In this document: piece after piece, positions 640 to 58,361 of the stretch
Position numbering within the stretch: the stretch's first letter is position 1
How the letters are laid out: every line of letters starts with the position of its first letter
Source of the DNA: a virus
Virus record (IMG/VR): IMGVR_UViG_3300046524_000088
Coordinates: 1-58,361 of that record
DNA length: 58,361 bases
Direction: 5' to 3' (one strand)
Made by a program: the position numbers and the translations under genes
Notes under the pieces: model-generated
The model's database searches: none
What the model was told of the DNA's origin: nothing
Seen by the model: the letters and a program-made list of their open reading frames with translations, nothing else

Positions 640-946
640 TCTCAATATTGTAGTAGTGCAGAGGTAAGCCCCGGTACACAAGCCGGCAATGTCAAGGCAG
701 CGGTGGCAATCAAGGACGGCGTGGGAAATCGATGACACGCATAGGCATGACGAACTGGGTGCCGGAAAGTCTCCAGTTAAAGGCAGGAAGGTGGCCACAG
801 ACCGCTCTACCGGCACAGGATGTCGGATGAAGTCGAAACACATCGCCGGGGTAGCGTCCGGCTCCTTAAGCGCAGCGGCTAGCGTACGTAGCCTACCAAT
901 CGGGCTTAGCCGACATCAGCCACGGCGGTTTAAACCAGCAGGATTT
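640..946 (+). ncRNA. non-coding structured element, copy A
   Basis: No convincing protein is encoded here, and the segment ends at a strong terminator. It shares blocks with copy B (53038-53243): GCGTCCGGCTCCTTA at 854-868 versus GCGTCTGAGGCTCCTTA, and ACCAATCGGGCTTAGCC at 895-911 versus ACCAAACCGGGATTAACC. A hairpin GATGT/ACATC (819-823/840-844) has a loop starting CGGATGAAG, like the CGGCGAAG loop of copies B and C. Another hairpin, GGCTA/TAGCC, lies near 878-893. I read it as a 3'-terminal transcript segment or independent small RNA; boundaries are approximate. Confidence 0.55.
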
Positions 947-3744: not shown

Positions 3745-3918
3745 ATGGGAACCTTTATCTTCTGGACAATCTGGGCGCTGGTCTTTGCCTTCTACGCGCT
3801 GACAAGTCGTCGGCAGAGGCAACGCTGGGAAGCCCTCATGTGGATTTGGGCTACCATCTTCATCCTCACCGCCGAAACTCTCAACTTCTTCAACCAGGGC
3901 TATCTCACGCTCGTGTAG
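3745..3918 (+). CDS. two-TM membrane protein, antisense-oriented moron candidate
   Basis: A 57-residue protein (begins MGTFIFWTIWALVFAFYAL) with two hydrophobic segments separated by a basic RRQRQRWE loop. It is the only plus-strand gene within the 34 kb late block. It diverges from the 27-residue gene and converges on the polyvalent-protein gene, overlapping its last 14 bases. Its own TATAAT box places it under independent control. Longer in-frame starts (3637, 3694, 3715) lack good ribosome sites. Small exported or membrane morons often alter host phage sensitivity; here that is only a hypothesis. Confidence 0.55.
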   Translation: MGTFIFWTIWALVFAFYALTSRRQRQRWEALMWIWATIFILTAETLNFFNQGYLTLV

Positions 3919-6900
3919 CGAATATCCGTGCAATCTTGTCCTGCTCGATCTTCAGCCGGCGAATCGTTTCTTCCTTCTGTTGGCCCGTCAGTTCCTTGCT
4001 GTTCATCGTGCGCTGGATCTGCTGGTTGATTTTCGACTCGTTTTTCTTCAGGGACTCAACCAGATGGTACTTGGCGATCTCAGTACCATCGTCCTTCATG
4101 ATCTGCCGCGCCTTCTCGATGTCGCCGTTCTTGATGGCGTTGCGGTAGCTGGCATAGCTCTGCTCGATGTCCTGCGCGGTCGAGTACAGCATGTCCACAT
4201 AGCGGCTACTGTTGGTCGGCAGCGTCTCGGCAAAGGAGCCGGCAAAGGTCTTTATGGTGGCTGGTAGCGCCTCGCCACGGTCGATGACCGAGTGATGCAG
4301 CAGGCCGTCAACAGCGGCGGTAGCCAACGTGCCAAGTCCTGAGAAGTAGCCTTTGATCAGCGAATCGATCTGGACTGGCGAGAGTTGCTTGACGCCAGTG
4401 CCGGAAACAAGGCTGAGCGGGTCCACGATGGCGCCGGACTTCGACAGTAGGCGTGCCAGCTCCGACGTGTTGTAGGTGTAGCGGTCCTCTGGCTTTAGGC
4501 GCTGCATGGCCATGTTCTCGATTGGTCGGCCGGTGAATGCATCCTTGTTCGAGTACACGTCGATCAGCGGGCGGAAAACTTGCGGGATCGGGTTCATGGC
4601 AAGCTGACCATTCACGATGTCGCCCAACTGGTTGGCGAAGCGCTTGGCATTCGTGTTCTCGGGATCGACCATCAGCGCGGTAAGGTGCTCGATTGCCGAA
4701 CCCATGGCGCCAATCTCAAACGGACGTGGAATACGATAGGCCGTGCCGCCAACCTTAAACCACCAGTAATTGTTGCGGTCGGAGTCGGTGCGTTTCTTGA
4801 AGTCGTCGTCATCCTTGTAGGCCAGAAGCAGCGCCACGGAGGCCAGAGCCACAGCACCGATCACCGTACCCATACGGCGCGGGTCATCGTTGTAACCCCG
4901 GCCAAGCTTATACAGGCCTTGCAGCCTGGCGTTGAAGAATGGGAGAATCTGATTCAGCGCACGCACGCCAGCCCATGCACCAGACAGTCCGAAGTCCATC
5001 AGGTCACGCGCCTCAAACGAAGCCTCAAGGTGGCTCTTGCCCTCATTGCGCAGCTTCTGGTACAGCGCCGCCCGGTTCAGGTTCTCCGACAGGTCACCCA
5101 GTTCTTGGTAGCTGTGCCACAGCTTCTTGGTGAAAGTCGTCATCTTCTCGGCGGTGTTCAGGATCGTATCGTCAGCAACACCGGAATCGATCAGGCGTTT
5201 GACGTTCTCGGCGCGATTGCCTTCCATATAGGTGCCGAAGCGATAGACGCCACCGCCAGCGATCAGATCGGCCTTTGTCTGCTTGTCATGCAGCAGCGAG
5301 TAGCCGTTCTTCAGGTTCATCAGTGGGTTGTAGCCAGCATCCGATACGGCGATCGTGCTGATGGAATCGCGGATCAGGTTACGCACCTTGAATCCTGGCA
5401 TGCTGGTCACGGCAAGCGTCAGGTAATTCTTGAACTTCGACATCACCTTCATGGCTTGATTGTTGTAGCCGTTGAACTCCAGCGCGCTGATGGCCGCCAG
5501 CAGGTGCTCATCCTCTACCACATGCCAGCGATTGACTCCGTTCTCCATGTAGGAGACGGCCTTGGTACTGGCCGCTTTGCCCATCTGGCGAATCGTAGCT
5601 TCATCGGCTTCAGTCGCGGCGCCAATCTGTGTAGCGGCATCAAGCGATGCTTTCGCGGCGCGGTTCTTGGCCGATGCGGTCAACAGCGTAGACCAGTTCA
5701 TCAGCATGTTCTGCGTCAGGTCGCCCAGGTTGTTCGTGCCGCCCTTGAGCTTCTTGATGGATTTCTGGTTGACTAGGCCCGACTTGATCGATGGCCCGGT
5801 GATGCCTTCCTCCATGACACGGTAGAATGGCACGTAGAAGTCTGATGCCCAGACCTTGCGCGACTCGCCATCGATCAGGCCCGACTTCTCAGCGATGTCC
5901 AGCACCGACTTGTTCAGTTCAGCCACGTCCTTCTGCGCTTTCAGGTACACGGCTTCACGGCTCTGGCCGTCTTTCATTTGGCCTTGGTTCAGCGTGGACA
6001 AGGCGGAAATGTCCTCATTGGTGAACAGGTTCTCGCGGCCTTCCTTCTTCAACTGCTCAGCGCGGCGCCCAGCCATCCACGAGAAGAAGCGGTCATGCTC
6101 GCCGTTTAGCATCTGCATGGTTTCGATGAAGCCTTTTTTCGTAGTGTCCACCAGCATGCCGCCATCGGAGTCCAAGTGCGGGCGCCCGTACAGCATCAGT
6201 GCCTCCAGCGTGCCATCCGCGTTCTTCGCCATGCGCGCCATGACGTACGGAATCTTGCCCAACTGGTCCTTGATCGGGGCGAACTGGTCGAGGATGCCGT
6301 ACTGCAGTTTCTTCAGCGCGCCATCTTTCAGTTCGGCTACCTTCTGCTTCATGGTCTTCTCGGTGTAGATCACACCTGACTTGCGCAATGCGGCCTTCTG
6401 CGCTTCGGGAAGATCAGCGGCCCACTTTGGAATGACTTCCTCTGGTGTAGAGACTGGGGCGCGGCTTTGCAGCGCTGGCTGCATGTCTGTTTCGCTTTGG
6501 GCCAGTTTCGTTTCGATTTTAGGCGCATTCGTTTCACGGCCCTCAACCGCTGCACGTTGTTCACCGATCAGGGCACGCACATCAGCGTTTGATACCTCGG
6601 CTATAGGCTTACCAGTGATCGATGCCAGGAAGCGCTTGACGGCCTCGTAGACGCGGGCCATGGCACCGATGACGCCGTTGCGCGATGCGGCGGGAACCTT
6701 GACGCCATAGCGGTCTTCCAGCGCGGCGAAGTCGTCGGACTCAGTAGCGGCGGAAAGCTCGGCAATCGCTTCCTCGGTAGCAACCTGTTGGCTGACATTG
6801 CCGCGATCCTCTTGGATAGCCTCCGCTAATTCTTTGATGTACTTGTTGCCGCCAGCGATGTTCAGCGCTTCGTTGACGCTCTTGTCGTGGAGCATGCGCA

Positions 6901-9900
6901 GACCGGCGTGGGAGACTTCGTGCGCAGCTACCCATGCCGCACGCTCAGGCGATGCGATGTTGTCGGCGATCAGGTACACAGTCTTGGTCTGCGGATCGTA
7001 GACGCCTTCCGTACCGCTGTCGGCTTGCGCACGCTCACGCACGTCAGCCGGCAAGTCCTCAACGGACTGCACTGTGTTGACCTTGGTGAAGCCCAACCAC
7101 TTAGCACGCAGGTTGATGATGGCCTTGTTGACGGCGGTAGCAGTCAGGCCGCCAGTGATAGGCGCTTCGGACTTGAGCGGCGCTTCTTTGCGGCCGACTA
7201 CCTCATAGCGGTCATAGCCAAGATCATCGTTCGGCTCAACCGTCCATCGCGTACCAGTGTTGGCCTTGTTGCGCTCGGCTGCTTCCACCTTGGCATTGTT
7301 CTCGGACATACCTTTGCCATAGCGCCCAAGGTAGCGCTCGGTTACCTTACCGACTGGCTTGGCTGGTTCTGCTGCCGGTTCCTTCGCCTGTTTGCGTGCC
7401 TCGGCGTTTTCCTTGGCGCGGGCAATCTCAGCTTCTTGTCGGGCATACTTGTCCTCGGTAGCCTGCTGCGCTTTGGTCTGCGGCTTGTTGCGCTGGGCAG
7501 CCAGGCGCTCGTCCCGGGCTGCACGCAGGCGCGCTACTTCTTCTTGGGACTTAGTAAGCCGGGGCGCTTCTGCGCTTCCCTCTGTACGCTGTATCCGATC
7601 GCTGCTGCTTGCTTCGGAGGTTTGCCGGACGCTATCTCCTTGCCGATATTCTCCTTCAGTGCTGCTTTGCTGGCTGACTTCTTGAGTGGCATTTTGTACT
7701 CCTTTAGTGGTTGCGCCCCTTGCTTGCTCGGAGCTTGGGAAATCATGGACTTGCGCTAGCAGTTCACGGATTGGCGCATCTAGACGGATCACCTTGACAG
7801 GCTCATTGGTACCCAGCTTAGCAAGCCACTGATGATGGCCGTCGAGAATGTGGTTATCCGACGAAATCAGGATCGAGCGATCACCACCCTGATAGTCGCG
7901 GGCCTGCTGTACCTTTTCGTTGGAGAACTCGTGCTGGGTAGGTTTCAGATCACCAGCAGGAACTTCCGTGGTTTCATGAGTGATTCCACGTGCCTCAAGG
8001 AAATTGGTCAGGGCGCCGCGATGCTCGGCCTTGACCTGCGGCATCTGTTCGCGGCCAATGCCAAGAGTTCCGGACTCACGTGCGAACTCGGTCCACTTGC
8101 CATCAATCTGACGGCCAGATATCTTGGCTAGTGCAGGAGTGGCGTTCTGCGCAGTTGCATCAACCACACCTTTTCTAGCAGGTCGTGCTGGTTCTTCGGT
8201 AGTGACTTCTCCGCGATCAACAGGCTGCGTAGCAACTTCGCCTCCTGTCGTGACACGTTGTTGTACTGGCGCAGCAGCTTCAGTGCTGTTAGTGCGCTCA
8301 TCTCGAAGTCCGGGTCGTACTCCTGCTGGCTCATTTACAACCTCCTGTGCTTTCGGTGGATGGGCATCAATCAGGTCTTCAATCGTGTTCTCGCCCGTGC
8401 GGATGCTGCGCAAAGCAGCCATGCGTTCGTTGCCGGTTACGCCGGCAGCGGTCAGAACCGTCTTGGCCCGCGCTACCGAAGCATCAGTTTGCGCTTGCGT
8501 GCGCTGCTGCTGCGCTGGAATCGAGTTTTGCTGGTTCGGCGCTGCTGGCGTTTGAATCGCAGCAGGTCCGCTGCCGCTTCCTCGTGCATCCACACTACCC
8601 AGTTGTTGTCCACTTGGCTGTTCTTGTACAGCGTTCTGGATATTGCCCGCAACTGGTGCGTTGATAGCGGTGCTGCTTCGTCCAACCAAATCTTGTCGAA
8701 TTCCATTGCTCTCTCCCCGTTGTTGAGATTCAATGGTAGCAGGCGCTGGTACTTCGGCGGTTGCTGCGACGCGACGCGCTTGCGCTTCCTGCATGGCAAG
8801 CTGCATCGCGGTAGGTGCAGGCTGGTCAAAGCCCTGTGCATTGGTTACGGCATCAGCCTGTGCGACACGCTGGTCGGCAACCTGATTGAGCAACGGCGCA
8901 GTCTCGGCGGCGCGGCGCTGGTCCTCGGCGGCTTGGAACTCGGCTTGACGTTGTGTGGCTTGCTCTGTCAGGTGCTGGAGCCATGCGGCGTCGATGTCAT
9001 TGTTGCGCTGCGCCTGGAACTCGGGACTACCCTGCTCGACAGCGCGGTTGGCAGTGGCGATTGCTTCATCTACAGACTGCGCTTGCAGCACATCATTAGG
9101 CGTAACAGGCTGTGGCGTCAGGTCATTGCCTCCGAACAGACGTGCACGTGCGGCTTCCTGTTCATGCTCTGGCAAGCGGTTGATGAATGCCTCGGCATCG
9201 GAGCGCCGGCCGACTGATCCATCAGGGAAGGACAGGAACGGATCGGGCGTGTTGCCCAGTAGCAGAGGTGCAGTAGCAGGCGCCGGCGTTTCGGCGTGTG
9301 GCTTGCCGTGCAGCGCACCGCCAGCGATACCTCCGAACAGGCCGCCAGCAATCAGCCCTTGCGCGGCGTTCTCACCTACGCCGTCCAGTAACGGCTTGTC
9401 CATGGCGGCGTTCTGCCACATCTGTTCCTGAATGGATTGCGGCAGTTCCTCAAAGACGCCCTCGGATACACCGCCCTCGATCATGCGGCGGATAACTCCC
9501 TTGGAACTGGCAACCGGTGCATGGGCCTGAACCAGTGCGGTGTCGATGTCGGCGATACCCAGCTTCTCTGCGATGCGGCCACCGACAGCAGCGAATGCGC
9601 CTGTGCCGATACCGGATCCCAAGGCGGCGGCAGACTGGCCCAGCGACAGTGTGCCGTCAGCATTGGACTGGCGGATTTGCTCGGCAGTCTGGCCAGCGCC
9701 TACAGCACCCTCGCCAATCGCACCGCCAATGGTCGCGCCGATCTTTGGCGCCAGAGCAAGCGCACCGCGTCCGACAACACCACCAGCGCCCATGGACGGC
9801 AGCGACTCGACGCCAGTTTGCAGAATCGTACTTGGGTTCGACACCATAGCGCCCACAGTCGGCAGAAATCCCTTGGCGTCAGCGACGCGCTGGTTGGCTG

Positions 9901-10285
9901 CTTTCTGTGCGTCGGAGTACTGCTCGTTGAGTGCGGCCTTGGCCTCGGCAGGACGGAAACCTAGCGCCTCTGCACCCTTGCCGGCATAGCCACCAGTGAC
10001 GATATCGGCAAGACCAACAGCCGCCTCGGGCACACCAATGGCACCCTTGAGCGCGGAGATGCCCACGTCCTTGAGGCGGTCCATGGCTGTGGTTTCGGTC
10101 GGCTTGACCACCGCAGCTTGTTGCTGCTTCGGCAGAATCCCTTGCAGAATATCGCTGGCGCTGTACTTCTTGAGCGCCGCGTCGACATCGAAATCCAGTT
10201 CACCGTGCGACTTCAACCCATGAAGGATTTGGTCATCGCTGTAACCGGCATTGCGCGCTGCTGCATAATCGAAGTCGATCGACAT
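3905..10285 (-). CDS. large polyvalent (LPD38-type) ejection protein, 2126 aa
   Basis: Regions in order: an N-terminal segment; a Gly/Ala-rich hydrophobic stretch (about 70-330) like other injected phage proteins; a long Gln/Pro/Ala-rich linker (about 330-700); a ParB/sulfiredoxin-like fold (about 725-850) with HILDGHHQW at 812-820; a zincin-like metallopeptidase domain with HEVSH at 1122-1126; and a region (about 1500-1860) with [16 protein letters not shown] resembling large polyvalent protein-associated domain 38. The C-terminus is a basic helix. Polyvalent proteins are thought to be packaged and injected to protect or process incoming DNA. It lies next to the other ejection proteins. Both enzymatic domains keep key residues; activity is inferred. 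Confidence 0.8.
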
Positions 10286-41701: not shown

Positions 41702-42733
41702 TTAAAACTTCGCCTGCACATCCGCAACGTGCCGCTGTATGGCTGCGCAGATACGAGGGAAATCAGCGTCTTGGTACAGCTTGCCGGGCTGGCCCTTGGC
41801 GGTGCCATGCGCGAAGCCAAGAGACGCCAGGAACTCAGCCGTCACGTTGAAGCCGAGTCTGTCAACGATGACGCCCAGCTTGAGCGTAGGCGGTGCCTCC
41901 GCAGGCGCCAGCGTGACGGCTAGCGATGCCTGCTCTTCTGGAGTGAATTCCAGCACCTCCGGATCAATGATGATCTGGATGCGTGTGTCGGGCGCTGGAA
42001 TCACGGCCTCCGCTATCATGGCGTCAGCAATGGCTGCGCTGTCGGGCTGGGGTGCTGGATCTGGTGCGGCTTCGTTCATGGCTGGCTTTCTCGTTGGGTT
42101 GAACGCGAGGAACATCTGCACTTTTGCTTCGACTTCAGCGAGGAAATTCAGCACGTCTTCTTCCAACTGGTCGATGTATTTCTGGTTCCGCATGATGCGG
42201 GTCTTGTAGAGCTTGAGGTGTGCGGCGTCGCCTTGCATGCGCGGGTCGTATGAGCAGAAGTCGATCCACTCAAGGTCCATCACCCACATTTGCCCATAGA
42301 CTTGCGGCTCATGGTTTTCCGGCATGCCGTTGGCCCACGTTGCAAGGTGCACGGCGCTGTTGAACGGGCATTTAATTTCAATGCCGCCAGTAGCTCCTAC
42401 GCGGCCGTCAGACGATGCGCCAACCCATTTATGCACCTTGTGCTTGGCAAAGCCGACTTCGCGCACCATGGCCCCGGCATTCGTTTCGTAGGCTGCGCGT
42501 GCATATGGCTCAGCATCGGTTCCCCATTGCATAGCGTAGCTGCTGGCCGATTCGATTGGTTCGCCGGTCAGGCGCTCAACCACCAATTCCATCAGGTAGT
42601 CTTCGCGGGCCTTCAGCGGCTTGCCGTCGCGCTTGCTGATGGCCAAGATATCGATGAACCGGCTTGCGGTAGCGTGACCAGCACGCTGCTGGAGCCAAGA
42701 CAGCCCACCTTGGTCGGATTGGCGCTCAAGCAT
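41702..42733 (-). CDS. YqaJ-family (lambda Exo-like) 5'-3' exonuclease
   Basis: A 343-residue protein. The nuclease core keeps the PD-(D/E)XK residues: Asp109 (ASSDGRVG), Glu119 and Lys121 (GIEIKCPF), plus Glu75 (WGTDAEPYARA) and the Gln motif PQVYGQMWV. It resects duplex ends to 3' overhangs for the annealase. The C-terminal 130 residues are an extra Pro/Ala-rich and small globular extension not needed for nuclease activity. Its start overlaps the bet stop, forming the Red-like pair. Confidence 0.88.
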   Translation of the reverse strand: MLERQSDQGGLSWLQQRAGHATASRFIDILAISKRDGKPLKAREDYLMELVVERLTGEPIESASSYAMQWGTDAEPYARAAYETNAGAMVREVGFAKHKVHKWVGASSDGRVGATGGIEIKCPFNSAVHLATWANGMPENHEPQVYGQMWVMDLEWIDFCSYDPRMQGDAAHLKLYKTRIMRNQKYIDQLEEDVLNFLAEVEAKVQMFLAFNPTRKPAMNEAAPDPAPQPDSAAIADAMIAEAVIPAPDTRIQIIIDPEVLEFTPEEQASLAVTLAPAEAPPTLKLGVIVDRLGFNVTAEFLASLGFAHGTAKGQPGKLYQDADFPRICAAIQRHVADVQAKF

Positions 42734-43496
42734 CGGAACCCCCTTTTACAGCATCAGCCGCGTCGGCACGCTTTTTCAGCGTCGGCATGTTCGGCACCAG
42801 CGCTTGACGCTGCTCCTCGGTGATCGCAGCCCAAGCTGTCTCCAAATCCACCAAGCCGCCATCAGCGACCGTTTCAAGGTGCGCCAGTATGTCGGCATGC
42901 ACTTCGGTGAATTCGACCGTCATGGCCTGTTCTGCGATGTCTGCTGGGTTGCGGCGCTGTGGGCGCTGGTTGCCGCCGGCTACCGGCACTTCCATGATGC
43001 GCTCAGCCTCGTCCAGGTCGAAGATGCCGACATAGCCGAAGGCCAGGCGCGCGCACTGAATCATGGCCTTGTGGCGAAGCATACGCTTCGGGTGAGATTG
43101 CCATGGCTTGACAGGCCGCTTACACTCGCTGAGCCATTCAGTAACCTTTACCGGGTGGCTGCGGTCCTTGCGGTGCATGATGCAGGTGCACGACTCTTCA
43201 TCCTGCTGGAAGTCCATGCCGTCGAACTGTGGGTGGCTGTTGATGATGCGCGACCAGCCGTCGACGCCAACCACTGGCACAATCCCGTTGTTCTGGTCGG
43301 GGAAGGCATAGATTTCCTTGGTCCAGGGATTCAAGCCATATTGCTGGGCCACGATCAGCAGTGCGGACATTTGCGCGTCCGATACATTGCCCTTGAAAGC
43401 CGTAGCTTTCAGGACCGTCGTCAGGTCATCGGATTCCGGGATGCCAAAGGTTTCAGCCAGTTGCGAGACTTGCTTTACTACGAGCGCGTTGCTCAT
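42726..43496 (-). CDS. bet: single-strand annealing recombinase Bet (Red-beta family)
   Basis: A 256-residue protein with family signatures LKATAFKGNVSDAQMSALLI, QYGLNPWTKEIYAFPDQN, GIVPVVGVDGWSRIIN and the C-terminal KAMIQCARLAFGY. It anneals complementary strands produced by the exonuclease encoded next to it; together they repair and recombine phage genomes. Upstream lies a long non-coding element (copy C). Confidence 0.92.
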   Translation of the reverse strand: MSNALVVKQVSQLAETFGIPESDDLTTVLKATAFKGNVSDAQMSALLIVAQQYGLNPWTKEIYAFPDQNNGIVPVVGVDGWSRIINSHPQFDGMDFQQDEESCTCIMHRKDRSHPVKVTEWLSECKRPVKPWQSHPKRMLRHKAMIQCARLAFGYVGIFDLDEAERIMEVPVAGGNQRPQRRNPADIAEQAMTVEFTEVHADILAHLETVADGGLVDLETAWAAITEEQRQALVPNMPTLKKRADAADAVKGGSDA

Positions 43497-43554: not shown

Positions 43555-43800
43555 TGCTTACTGTTACTGCTGTTCTTGGTATATCCAAGAGGCTTGAGCG
43601 GTCCCCAGTCTTAGCTAGGGAACCTTCAACAATGATCCAGTGAGGAATCGCATTGCCCCGACAGCCATTTCGCGTGAGTGGTGCTATCTTCGCCGCCACT
43701 TTGTCCGGTATTTCACACGCTATGCCACAGTCCCGGTGTTCACTTAGCGCCCTGTTGCTTGCAGTCCCGGCGGTTAAGCTAGTCGATGGTGCAGAAACGC
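43555..43800 (-). ncRNA. non-coding structured element, copy C, upstream of bet
   Basis: About 440 bases between 43497 and 43942 have no convincing gene. Read on the minus strand, this part aligns with copy B: GGACTGCAAGCAACAGGGC (43767-43749), GTGAAC, then a hairpin AGTGG/CCACT around CGGCGAAGATAGCA (43700-43677), then CGAAATGGCTGTCG (43672-43659). A further stem, GGTTCCC/GGGGACC, lies near 43624-43600. In copy B the first stem is ATCGG/CCGAT around CGGCGAAGAAAGCA, so pairing is kept while bases change. It follows a terminator and may be a bet leader or a free RNA. Confidence 0.65.
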
Positions 43801-43876
43801 AAAAAGGGTCTAACCTTCTGCTTTCACCTGGGCGAACAGGTTGTGCTCTCAGCACAGAAAACAGAAGGTTAGACCC
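43801..43876 (-). terminator. long-stem, branched terminator
   Basis: GGGTCTAACCTTCTG (43806-43820) is exactly complementary to CAGAAGGTTAGACCC (43862-43876). On the minus strand the 15-bp stem is followed by TTTTT. The 41-base loop holds two more hairpins, GTGCT/AGCAC and ACCTG/CAGGT. It ends the upstream accessory operon before element C and bet. Confidence 0.75.
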
Positions 43877-43942
43877 TCTATCTCGTCAATGTTCGCCCAT
43901 CGACAGAACGGATAATGCCACACTACATTGGCATTTGGCAAA

Positions 43943-52807: not shown

Positions 52808-52897
52808 ATACCAATGTAATTCAGAAAGAATTTCCTTGACGTATGTGCGGAAACACACGTAGAGTTCGGTTGTCGATACCTGCAAGTTGAGACGGAA

Positions 52898-53002
52898 ATG
52901 TTTGATCGGGATGAAGCCCCAAGTTTTTCAGAGTGCCGCAAAAAGGTGTTTAACGTGACCCGATCCACGTTGACCACTTGGTTTGCAGACCCGGCACCCT
53001 AA
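52898..53002 (+). CDS. possible 34-residue HTH-like miniprotein
   Basis: The ORF MFDRDEAPSFSECRKKVFNV... ends exactly at the stem of the following terminator. The segment NVTRSTLTTWFAD resembles a helix-turn-helix recognition part. The frame is open further upstream but without ATG. Support is moderate: composition, position and a nearby GGA. Confidence 0.4.
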   Translation: MFDRDEAPSFSECRKKVFNVTRSTLTTWFADPAP

Positions 53003-53021
53003 AGAATTTGGGGCTTTTTTT
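52997..53021 (+). terminator. rho-independent terminator inside the early operon
   Basis: CCCTAAA/TTTGGGG stem (52997-53003, 53007-53013) followed by C and seven T. It separates the modification genes from element B and the replication genes. Confidence 0.75.
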
Positions 53022-53037
53022 CGTCTTATGGTTTTGA

Positions 53038-53243
53038 CCCCTCGTCTGTCGGTAGTGCAAATCGACAGGGCAGACTGGGGATAGGTGAACTGGTTGTCAG
53101 GGATGGAATACACCACATATCGGCGGCGAAGAAAGCACCGATTCCCGAAAAGGCTTTCGCGTCTGAGGCTCCTTATACGGGTATCAGTAAAGGACGTTTC
53201 TCTTAGTCTAGGGCTACGTCCCTTCACCAAACCGGGATTAACC
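53038..53243 (+). ncRNA. non-coding structured element, copy B
   Basis: The 243 bases between the terminator and the gene at 53246 lack a convincing ORF. Stems visible in order: GTCTG/CAGAC with CTGTCG/CGACAG as the alternative (about 53045-53075); ATCGG/CCGAT (53119-53123, 53138-53142) around CGGCGAAGAAAGCA; GGACGT/ACGTCC near 53192-53222. Blocks are shared with copy C on the minus strand and copy A at 640-946. It could be the leader of the 53246 gene or an independent RNA. Confidence 0.65.
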
Positions 53244-53245
53244 AA

Positions 53246-53470
53246 ATGAAAACAATAGAGAAGAACATACCTCTACCAAGCAAGGTTTTAGGAAAGCAAA
53301 CCCAGTATCCTTTTAAGGATATGAGCATCGGTGATTCCTTCCTGTGCGAGGTCGGAGCAAAGCAAAACCGTCTCACCTCGATCAATAGCCGTGCTGGCAA
53401 ACGACTGGGTATGAAATTCACTAGTCGTATCGTTGAAGATGGTCGTATTCGTGTGTGGAGAATCGAATGA
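53246..53470 (+). CDS. conserved small phage protein (DUF7303-like)
   Basis: A 74-residue protein with YPFKDMSIGDSFLCE, GKRLGMKFTSRIVE and RIRVWRIE, a pattern I associate with a widespread small phage family. It follows element B directly; the ribosome site (GGGATT) is weak, which would allow control by the upstream RNA fold. Confidence 0.6.
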   Translation: MKTIEKNIPLPSKVLGKQTQYPFKDMSIGDSFLCEVGAKQNRLTSINSRAGKRLGMKFTSRIVEDGRIRVWRIE

Positions 53471-53673: not shown

Positions 53674-54161
53674 CCACGTTTCGGACAGAAGGCGCTCTTG
53701 TTGGCGCGGCAAACGAGGCCAGGGCTTTAACTGCGCTTGTTTGTGCTTACCTTGACCTGTGGCGGAAGCATGCTAACGGCGTATATGGGATTACTATTCC
53801 TCGCGAGGAATTCAATGTGATTTTCCGCGCGCCAACTGAAAAAGGCGTCGATTTCAAGATCATCTACACCAGGACTCATTCGAGGGAAGTGGCTGAATAT
53901 TACGACGTTGATAGCGACTACTTCAGCGAAAGCTGGGGGTCGAGCAATATCTCTGGATATCGCATCGAGCACAGCACCAGCATTTACGAAGATGGGCTGA
54001 TGATCCCGTATGGAGCGCTGCTGAAGTCTAAAGAGGACATGGAAAAAAGCATAATCGATTCGGCTGAGCGATACAAAAAAGAACAGGCCGAAGCAGAGCG
54101 CCAGCGCCAGATCAAAGAGGCTGAAGCGCGACTTCGTGAACTACGGGGAGATGCAACATGA
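53670..54161 (+). CDS. hypothetical protein with C-terminal coiled coil
   Basis: A 163-residue protein (MTTFRTEGALVGAANEARAL...) with an alpha/beta N-terminal part (GITIPREEFNVIFRAPTEKG) and a C-terminal charged coiled coil (KKEQAEAERQRQIKEAEARL). Starts in an ATGA overlap. It precedes the replication genes. No family recognised. Confidence 0.6.
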   Translation: MTTFRTEGALVGAANEARALTALVCAYLDLWRKHANGVYGITIPREEFNVIFRAPTEKGVDFKIIYTRTHSREVAEYYDVDSDYFSESWGSSNISGYRIEHSTSIYEDGLMIPYGALLKSKEDMEKSIIDSAERYKKEQAEAERQRQIKEAEARLRELRGDAT

Positions 54162-54700
54162 CCACCGACCACATGGACCTGCGCGCCGCTGCGTCTCCTG
54201 ATTCAATCGAATTAGGAGGAAAAGTTTTTGTATCCCCGATAGCGATTGCCGAACTGCTGGCCGCCTACGATTCCCTGGTAGCCGCCGGCAGCAAGCCGAA
54301 GAAGGCAACCGGCTACAGCCCCGAATTTGAAGAGGCGTGGAGCGAATACCCAACGCGGCCCGGCAACAGCAAGGCGGCGGCTTGGAAGGCGTGGCAAGCG
54401 CGCCTGAAGGCCAAGGTATCGCCGGAAACGCTGGTCGAGGGCGTGCGCAAGTATGCGGCCTACTGCAACGCCAAGGGAACCGAGGCCGAATTCGTCAAGA
54501 TGGCGTCGACGTTCTTCGGGCCGGCCGAGCACTACGCCGCCGACTGGGCGCTGCCACGTGAGGTTGTGCGCCGCCAGCTGCCCGACCGACGCGAGCAGAA
54601 GAAGGCCGACGCCAACGCCGAGGCGCTGCGTATCCTGGACGGCATCCCGCCGATGGGCGGCGACATCATCGACATGGAGGACTGCAATGCACGCCAATGA
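54158..54700 (+). CDS. phage replication (O-like) protein
   Basis: A 180-residue protein. The central part FEEAWSEYPTRPGNSKAAAW and KAWQARLKAK, then VRKYAAYCNAKGTEAEFVKM and ASTFFGP, match a domain found in many phage replication initiators or helicase-recruiting proteins. The N-terminal 55 residues are too short to contain a typical origin-binding wHTH, so DNA binding may depend on a partner. Coupled to the next gene, forming an O/P-like pair. Confidence 0.6.
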   Translation: MTTDHMDLRAAASPDSIELGGKVFVSPIAIAELLAAYDSLVAAGSKPKKATGYSPEFEEAWSEYPTRPGNSKAAAWKAWQARLKAKVSPETLVEGVRKYAAYCNAKGTEAEFVKMASTFFGPAEHYAADWALPREVVRRQLPDRREQKKADANAEALRILDGIPPMGGDIIDMEDCNARQ

Positions 54701-58197: not shown

Positions 58198-58361
58198 ATG
58201 AACTTGAACCAATTCGCTATTGAGACGTTCCCCGACTGGATCGGCTTCTTGCTGGTCGTAGCCTGCGCTCTGTGGCTGGGCTGGGAATGCTTGGTCAGCT
58301 ACTGCGACCGCCAGCCGATCGTGGAAGAGGCGCGCTTCCCAGTCAACGAGACGGCCAACGT
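58198..58361 (+). CDS. membrane protein, 5' part of gene split by the contig ends
   Basis: ATG at 58198 opens MNLNQFAIETFPDWIGFLLV..., which continues in frame at base 128 of the window (after the repeat) and ends at 365, for 133 residues in all. AAGGG lies upstream. See the 3' part at 1-365. Confidence 0.8.
   Translation, partial: MNLNQFAIETFPDWIGFLLVVACALWLGWECLVSYCDRQPIVEEARFPVNETAN
58235..58361. repeat. terminal direct repeat, right copy
   Basis: Exact duplicate of bases 1-127; collapsing it gives a circular map of about 58,234 bp. Confidence 0.95.

Follow-up and report, generated by a model that had tools for sequence, protein, structure and literature searches.

In phage lambda, the nut sites are short boxA/boxB elements that need N, with nutL in the bet/exo operon and nutR before the replication genes. 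In phages P4 and P1, the CI and C4 RNAs control termination in the leader: the early leaders contain terminators and pairing RNAs and lie beside replication genes. RNAs of the HK022 put type suppress termination through the zinc-binding domain of the RNA polymerase beta′ subunit. HK022 has two put RNAs, putL and putR, which lie downstream of PL and PR, are similar in sequence, act without any phage protein and make the polymerase ignore terminators (PMC9378689).

The window analyzed here is a stretch of viral DNA of 58,361 nt (IMG/VR record IMGVR_UViG_3300046524_000088). Positions 1-127 recur at 58235-58361 as a direct terminal repeat of 127 bp, so that the window probably represents an entire phage genome, circular or terminally redundant, of about 58.2 kb. 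A 2126-aa ORF (3905-10285, minus strand) matches methyltransferase and DarB-like antirestriction profiles weakly, and the product is possibly an injected giant protein.

A sequence-only reading had picked out three related structured elements in this genome, called A, B and C below (Table 1). For B and C the relationship holds: they are homologous structured RNAs, diverged copies of one RNA, RF02932, whose family and structure we regard as nearly certain. That reading had found no named family that fits, but Rfam holds one, RF02932 (Betaproteobacteria-1 RNA), whose model of 120 positions is matched from 1 to 120 by B with 63.7 bits (window 53041-53162) and by C with 58.1 bits (43656-43779); both scores, but none for A, are above the gathering cut-off of 49.4 bits. 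The sequence blocks quoted as common to B and C are present where they had been placed, and the B–C local alignment score is 77, compared with 25.6 ± 5.1 in 300 shuffles of B, none of which scored as high. In the alignment, the identity of B with C is 55%, and that with the copy in another virus (L261) is 79%; because B is closer to the copies of other viruses than to C, the pair does not reflect a recent duplication. Rfam files the family under Gene; sRNA, and it was reportedly first described by Weinberg in 2017. A literature search by family name or RF02932 returned nothing relevant, and as far as we could find this is an orphan family.

Table 1. Positions in the window of the RNAs, their leaders and the neighboring genes.
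Feature	Position	Strand	Basis or remark
Promoter-like site before the B leader, TTGACG-18-TAGAGT	52836..52865	+	one found, 0.6 expected; weak
Leader of B: long hairpin and T-run, crossing helices GATCGGG/CCCGATC; CTGCAAGTTGAG/CTTGGTTTGCAG	52866..53021	+	fold -57.7 kcal/mol
Terminator of the B leader plus T-run	52997-53013	+	within the B leader
Element B, full-length RF02932-type RNA	53034..53238	+	P1, PKa, P2, P3, P4, P5, P6, P7, CACCAAA end; R1 103.9 bits (in training set)
3′ domain of B beyond the Rfam model (P6 with GGCUCC, AAAGG, P7, CACCAAA)	53163..53231	+	aligned, conserved in 64 relatives
X1 of B (ACGGGTAT), P6 loop	53177..53184	+	read from sequence; 5/8 identical to X2
X2 of B (CCGGGATT), past the 3′ end	53232..53239	+	read from sequence
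74-aa ORF downstream of B	53246..53470	+	weak phrog_10287
Replication protein gene after the 74-aa ORF	54158-54700	+	phrog_26426, E 1.4e-34
Promoter-like site before the C leader, TTGCCA-18-CATTAT	43912..43941	-	weak consensus match
Leader of C: long hairpin (AGAGGGTCTAACCTTCTGT/GCAGAAGGTTAGACCCTTT) plus T-run, crossing helix TGGGCGAACA/TGTTCGCCCA	43801..43910	-	fold -59.6 kcal/mol
Element C, full-length RF02932-type RNA	43583..43785	-	R1 89.0 bits (in training set); Rfam 58.1 bits
X1 of C (CTGGATCA)	43633..43640	-	read from sequence
X2 of C (TTGGATAT)	43581..43588	-	read from sequence
Bet-like ssDNA annealing protein gene, downstream of C	42726..43496	-	phrog_252, E 1.5e-84
Exonuclease gene after the Bet-like gene	41702-42733	-	downstream of C
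Element A, separate RNA candidate	640..946	+	conserved block about 780-866; terminator 948-966

The RNA is about 200 nt long, and the Rfam model falls short of it by about 80 nt: what it lacks is a conserved 3′ domain consisting of P6 with GGCUCC, AAGG, P7 and then CACCAAA. An alignment of 64 members (A1) served to build, on this longer RNA, an extended model of 201 positions (R1; scores in Table 1). The Rfam model comprises three hairpins (the structure line of the match gives P1, P2 and P5 only) and ends at the P5 region; compared with that model rather than with the original description, the RNA here adds, besides the 3′ domain, the crossing helices PKa, P3 and P4 and a direct repeat, X. 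PKa crosses P1 and P2, P3 crosses P2 and P5, and P4 crosses P5.

PKa, P2, P4, P5, P6 and the outer pairs of P7 can be counted by column in A1. PKa (columns 54-57/81-84) is 97% paired, with changes from CG to UA and from AU to GC or UA. P4 is the covarying stem that had been noted from B and C alone (ATCGG/CCGAT versus AGTGG/CCACT); it is paired in all 64 relatives (100%), and its variable first pair is GC in 42, CG in 10, AU in 8 and UA in 4. Since the P4/P5 core supplied the motif by which most members were collected, its invariant letters are partly selected, but the varying pairs are not. Over the pair cells tested in A1, 94.4% are paired, 247 cells are changed on both sides as opposed to 70 ± 6 in shuffles, and the covariation score is 0.475, compared with 0.176 when shuffled and no more than 0.122 when the partners are slid. 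Column counts were unsuitable for P1 and P3, which align too poorly, so each member's own strands were tested against swapped strands, giving pairing scores of 9.25 versus 5.69 ± 0.17 for P1 and 6.19 versus 4.40 ± 0.13 for P3; the P7 helix has a z of 12.5. The sequence-only reading had argued for a functional structured RNA present more than once in a phage; with covariation across 64 relatives above every control, and with the Rfam matches, that case is borne out for B and C.

One further signal is also of the identity type, with the same letter on both sides, and is consistent with competition between two strands. The x in CGxGU after P5 (A1 column 160) and the x in CURxGU of P7 (column 238) are the same letter in 94%, versus 55% when shuffled (G-G 43, A-A 12, C-C 5), and an alternative helix, J5/6:P7-5′, has a z of 6.1. 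Since the 5′ strand of P7 is the known partner of these letters, J5/6 can compete for it with the 3′ strand.

Motif scans of IMG/VR together with family searches yielded at least 129 distinct loci, mostly in viral records, and most occurrences of the RNA are in betaproteobacterial phages and prophages. Among named phage and plasmid records, searched with another member as query, the sole close relative is in Acidovorax phage AP1, directly after the primase gene. A match over the cut-off was found in 5 of 399 genomes sampled from the order of a Rubrivivax MAG (G011), which fits a prophage element; matches in a loose motif scan of bacterial genomes were mostly due to chance. When 50 other virus records, many of them fragments, were checked with the extended model, each had exactly one copy, so the two copies in this genome are unusual.

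B and C head gene runs on opposite strands, with replication genes following B and bet/exo following C. Each is directly behind a terminator, C ahead of the Bet-like gene and B ahead of the ORF at 53246, just as had been read from the sequence. At other loci, the same-strand upstream neighbor is a primase in 29 of 84 and a short HTH-like protein in 14 of 84, while the largest cluster of downstream neighbors, replication-protein-like, accounts for 12 of 97; the clusters were named by reading sequences and the ORFs called by a simple rule, with the primase assignment backed separately.

Upstream of the RNA, a terminator with a stem of at least 8 bp lies within about 85 nt in 72 of the 122 loci with enough upstream sequence, as opposed to 5 of 122 after shuffling. 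The stretch before the terminator hairpin is complementary to the hairpin loop (10.37 versus 7.76 ± 0.17 swapped; z 17 in a second test), which gives the order a-b-a′-b′ with b:b′ as the terminator; both B and C carry such a leader, whose arrangement could be that of an attenuator or of a pseudoknotted terminator. Promoter-like sites are found upstream in 40 of the 122 loci versus 27 of 122 shuffled. The leaders of eight loci matched no relevant family in Rfam, and where a primase gene lies upstream the leader is, by reading, often missing. The idea that the leader pairs with the RF02932 RNA was considered and dropped, nothing convincing having emerged from 25 tests, of which the largest z was 3.2 (linker-core).

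The repeat X is an 8-nt word that follows CUCC-N in the P6 loop (X1) and recurs after CACC-N just past the 3′ end of the RNA (X2). The word varies between members (AAGGAGAA, AAGGGAAG and AAAGCAAA, among others) yet matches within each: agreement at the 8 positions is 61-88% for a member's own pair and 29-58% for swapped members, and the local alignment score is 6.69 for own and 5.11 for swapped pairs, with 5.52 as the best of 5000 permutations. Within the window the repeat is weaker (ACGGGTAT/CCGGGATT in B, CTGGATCA/TTGGATAT in C). We know of no described RNA family with identity-type covariation of this kind. X as one strand of a cis helix was rejected, no complement being present in 15 stretches tested between -400 and +520.

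X might work through RNA–DNA pairing. X1 has the sequence of the non-template strand at X2 and is therefore able to anneal to the template strand at that site, where it would form an R-loop or compete with the polymerase's RNA–DNA hybrid of about 9 bp, and could so prime replication or arrest and release the polymerase. The agreement of X1 with X2 beyond any permutation, the missing cis complement in the regions tested, the fact that template DNA is the only strand certain to be complementary to X, and the neighboring replication and recombination genes all speak for such pairing, but the argument proceeds by exclusion and X may have another binding partner; we consider it doubtful. Nor do we think it likely that RF02932 is a new kind of phage RNA for the control of transcription or replication that combines several pseudoknots, gating by its own pseudoknotted terminator and anchoring of the 8-nt word of the P6 loop to template DNA at the 3′ boundary. 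A reading in which the similarity is due to chance or coding and there is no RNA could draw on the fact that the first comparison involved three sequences only; the covariation tests refute it and the Rfam matches also count against it, so that it is barely conceivable.

The reading we prefer, tentatively and with rather less than even confidence, is that the RF02932 RNA is a cis-acting nascent RNA that controls the polymerase. It would be transcribed in the 5′ region of a phage operon, in the order probable promoter, attenuator-like terminator, RNA and genes (replication genes after B, recombination genes after C), and while nascent it would act in cis on its own RNA polymerase, allowing readthrough of pauses or terminators in a long operon, with the upstream terminator gating entry. 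The put RNA in HK022, and N at nut in lambda, perform this task. Transcription in this order, the action in cis and the polymerase as target are parts that we infer. The nut- and put-like positions favor this reading, and in the sequences of the loci inspected the 3′ end of the RNA is not immediately followed by an obvious terminator, which would suit a cis element. Against it, an antiterminator would be expected to have an excess of terminators downstream, yet the terminator-like sites within those operons are in no clear excess (8 versus 5.6 ± 2.7; 14 versus 13.4). The leader terminator, being upstream of the RNA, cannot be one that it suppresses. The single copies in the 50 other records, many of which are fragments, are also unlike the put pair, fold and size differ from put, and the direct repeat X is unaccounted for. 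It is also possible, if rather improbable, that cleavage of the operon transcript yields a stable, trans-acting phage RNA of 200 nt whose target is a protein or RNA of the host or the phage, and which might serve to capture a host factor. The very strong constraint on the structure, with its several crossing helices, the sharply defined ends (CACCAAA and X2), as in stable RNPs, the occurrence in different gene contexts and the Rfam class Gene; sRNA would all suit such an RNA, but in the loci inspected it sits inside or at the head of operons and no dedicated terminator was seen after it. Finally, the RNA could be a cis leader, such as a riboswitch or a protein-binding leader, by which the following gene is regulated at the level of translation or transcription. 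A leader riboregulator had been among the original guesses, and it fits the leader-like position directly before genes, the alternative helix J5/6:P7-5′ and the conserved attenuator-like terminator upstream. That terminator is a second conserved structure, which the sequence-only reading had not set apart from the element. Since the next gene is not conserved (12 of 97 in the largest downstream cluster) and the conserved terminators lie upstream rather than between RNA and gene, we judge this unlikely.

Element A looks like a separate and very rare structured-RNA candidate rather than a third copy of the RF02932 RNA. It has no match to RF02932 at E <= 5 in a search of the whole window or at E <= 10 within 400-1100, no match to the extended model, and a predicted fold no more stable than its shuffles (z = +0.81), and the three-member family was dropped on these grounds. 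The short words said to be common to A and B do occur in both, but A itself stays outside the family. Distant kinship is possible: the similarity of A to the family is reached by 5 of 776 segments of the window, 4 of which are B and C themselves, and the A–B pairwise score by 2 of 300 shuffles. The only relative of A that we found is an RNA of one other virus, in two IMG/VR contigs (L396 and L397) that are identical over the stretch compared, with which it has the block AAGGCAGG-AGGTGGCC-CAGACCGC-CTACC ... GGATGAAGTCGAAACACA--GCCGGGGTAGCGTCCGGC in common; at up to 3 mismatches, this block is absent from the 399 sampled genomes of the same order as G011. In L396 the relative lies on the minus strand at about 4024-4092, upstream of a gene that, by reading, resembles ERF-type annealing proteins, a placement that parallels that of C upstream of bet. 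Just downstream of it is a stretch like a tRNA 3′ end (GGTTCGATTCC...GCGCCA), without a full tRNA call, which is possibly a phage attachment core. Searches for a tRNA, tmRNA or known Rfam identity of A or its L396 relative found none.

With RF02932 placed in phage operons, its 3′ end corrected, and the crossing helices, the X repeat and the upstream attenuator added, the RNA becomes directly testable, and if it does anchor to DNA it would represent a new mode of RNA action. Like the P4 and P1 systems of CI and C4, it belongs to an early operon leader with terminators next to replication genes; in contrast to them, no convincing complementarity to the leader was found for it, nor any Rfam match to C4. 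With putL and putR of HK022, B and C have in common that two related copies occur in one phage, one per operon, at the heads of early-type transcripts, and, on the reading preferred here, that they act in cis. As for one copy per early promoter, B and C head opposite-strand runs, the promoters are weak consensus matches only, and the 50 other records have single copies. In contrast to put, with about 70 nt and two stem-loops, the RF02932 RNA has about 200 nt and crossing helices, and should it prove to be a processive antiterminator it would far exceed put in size and intricacy. The arrangement in this genome also resembles that of nutL and nutR in lambda, with the left copy (C) in the bet/exo operon and the right copy (B) before the replication genes.
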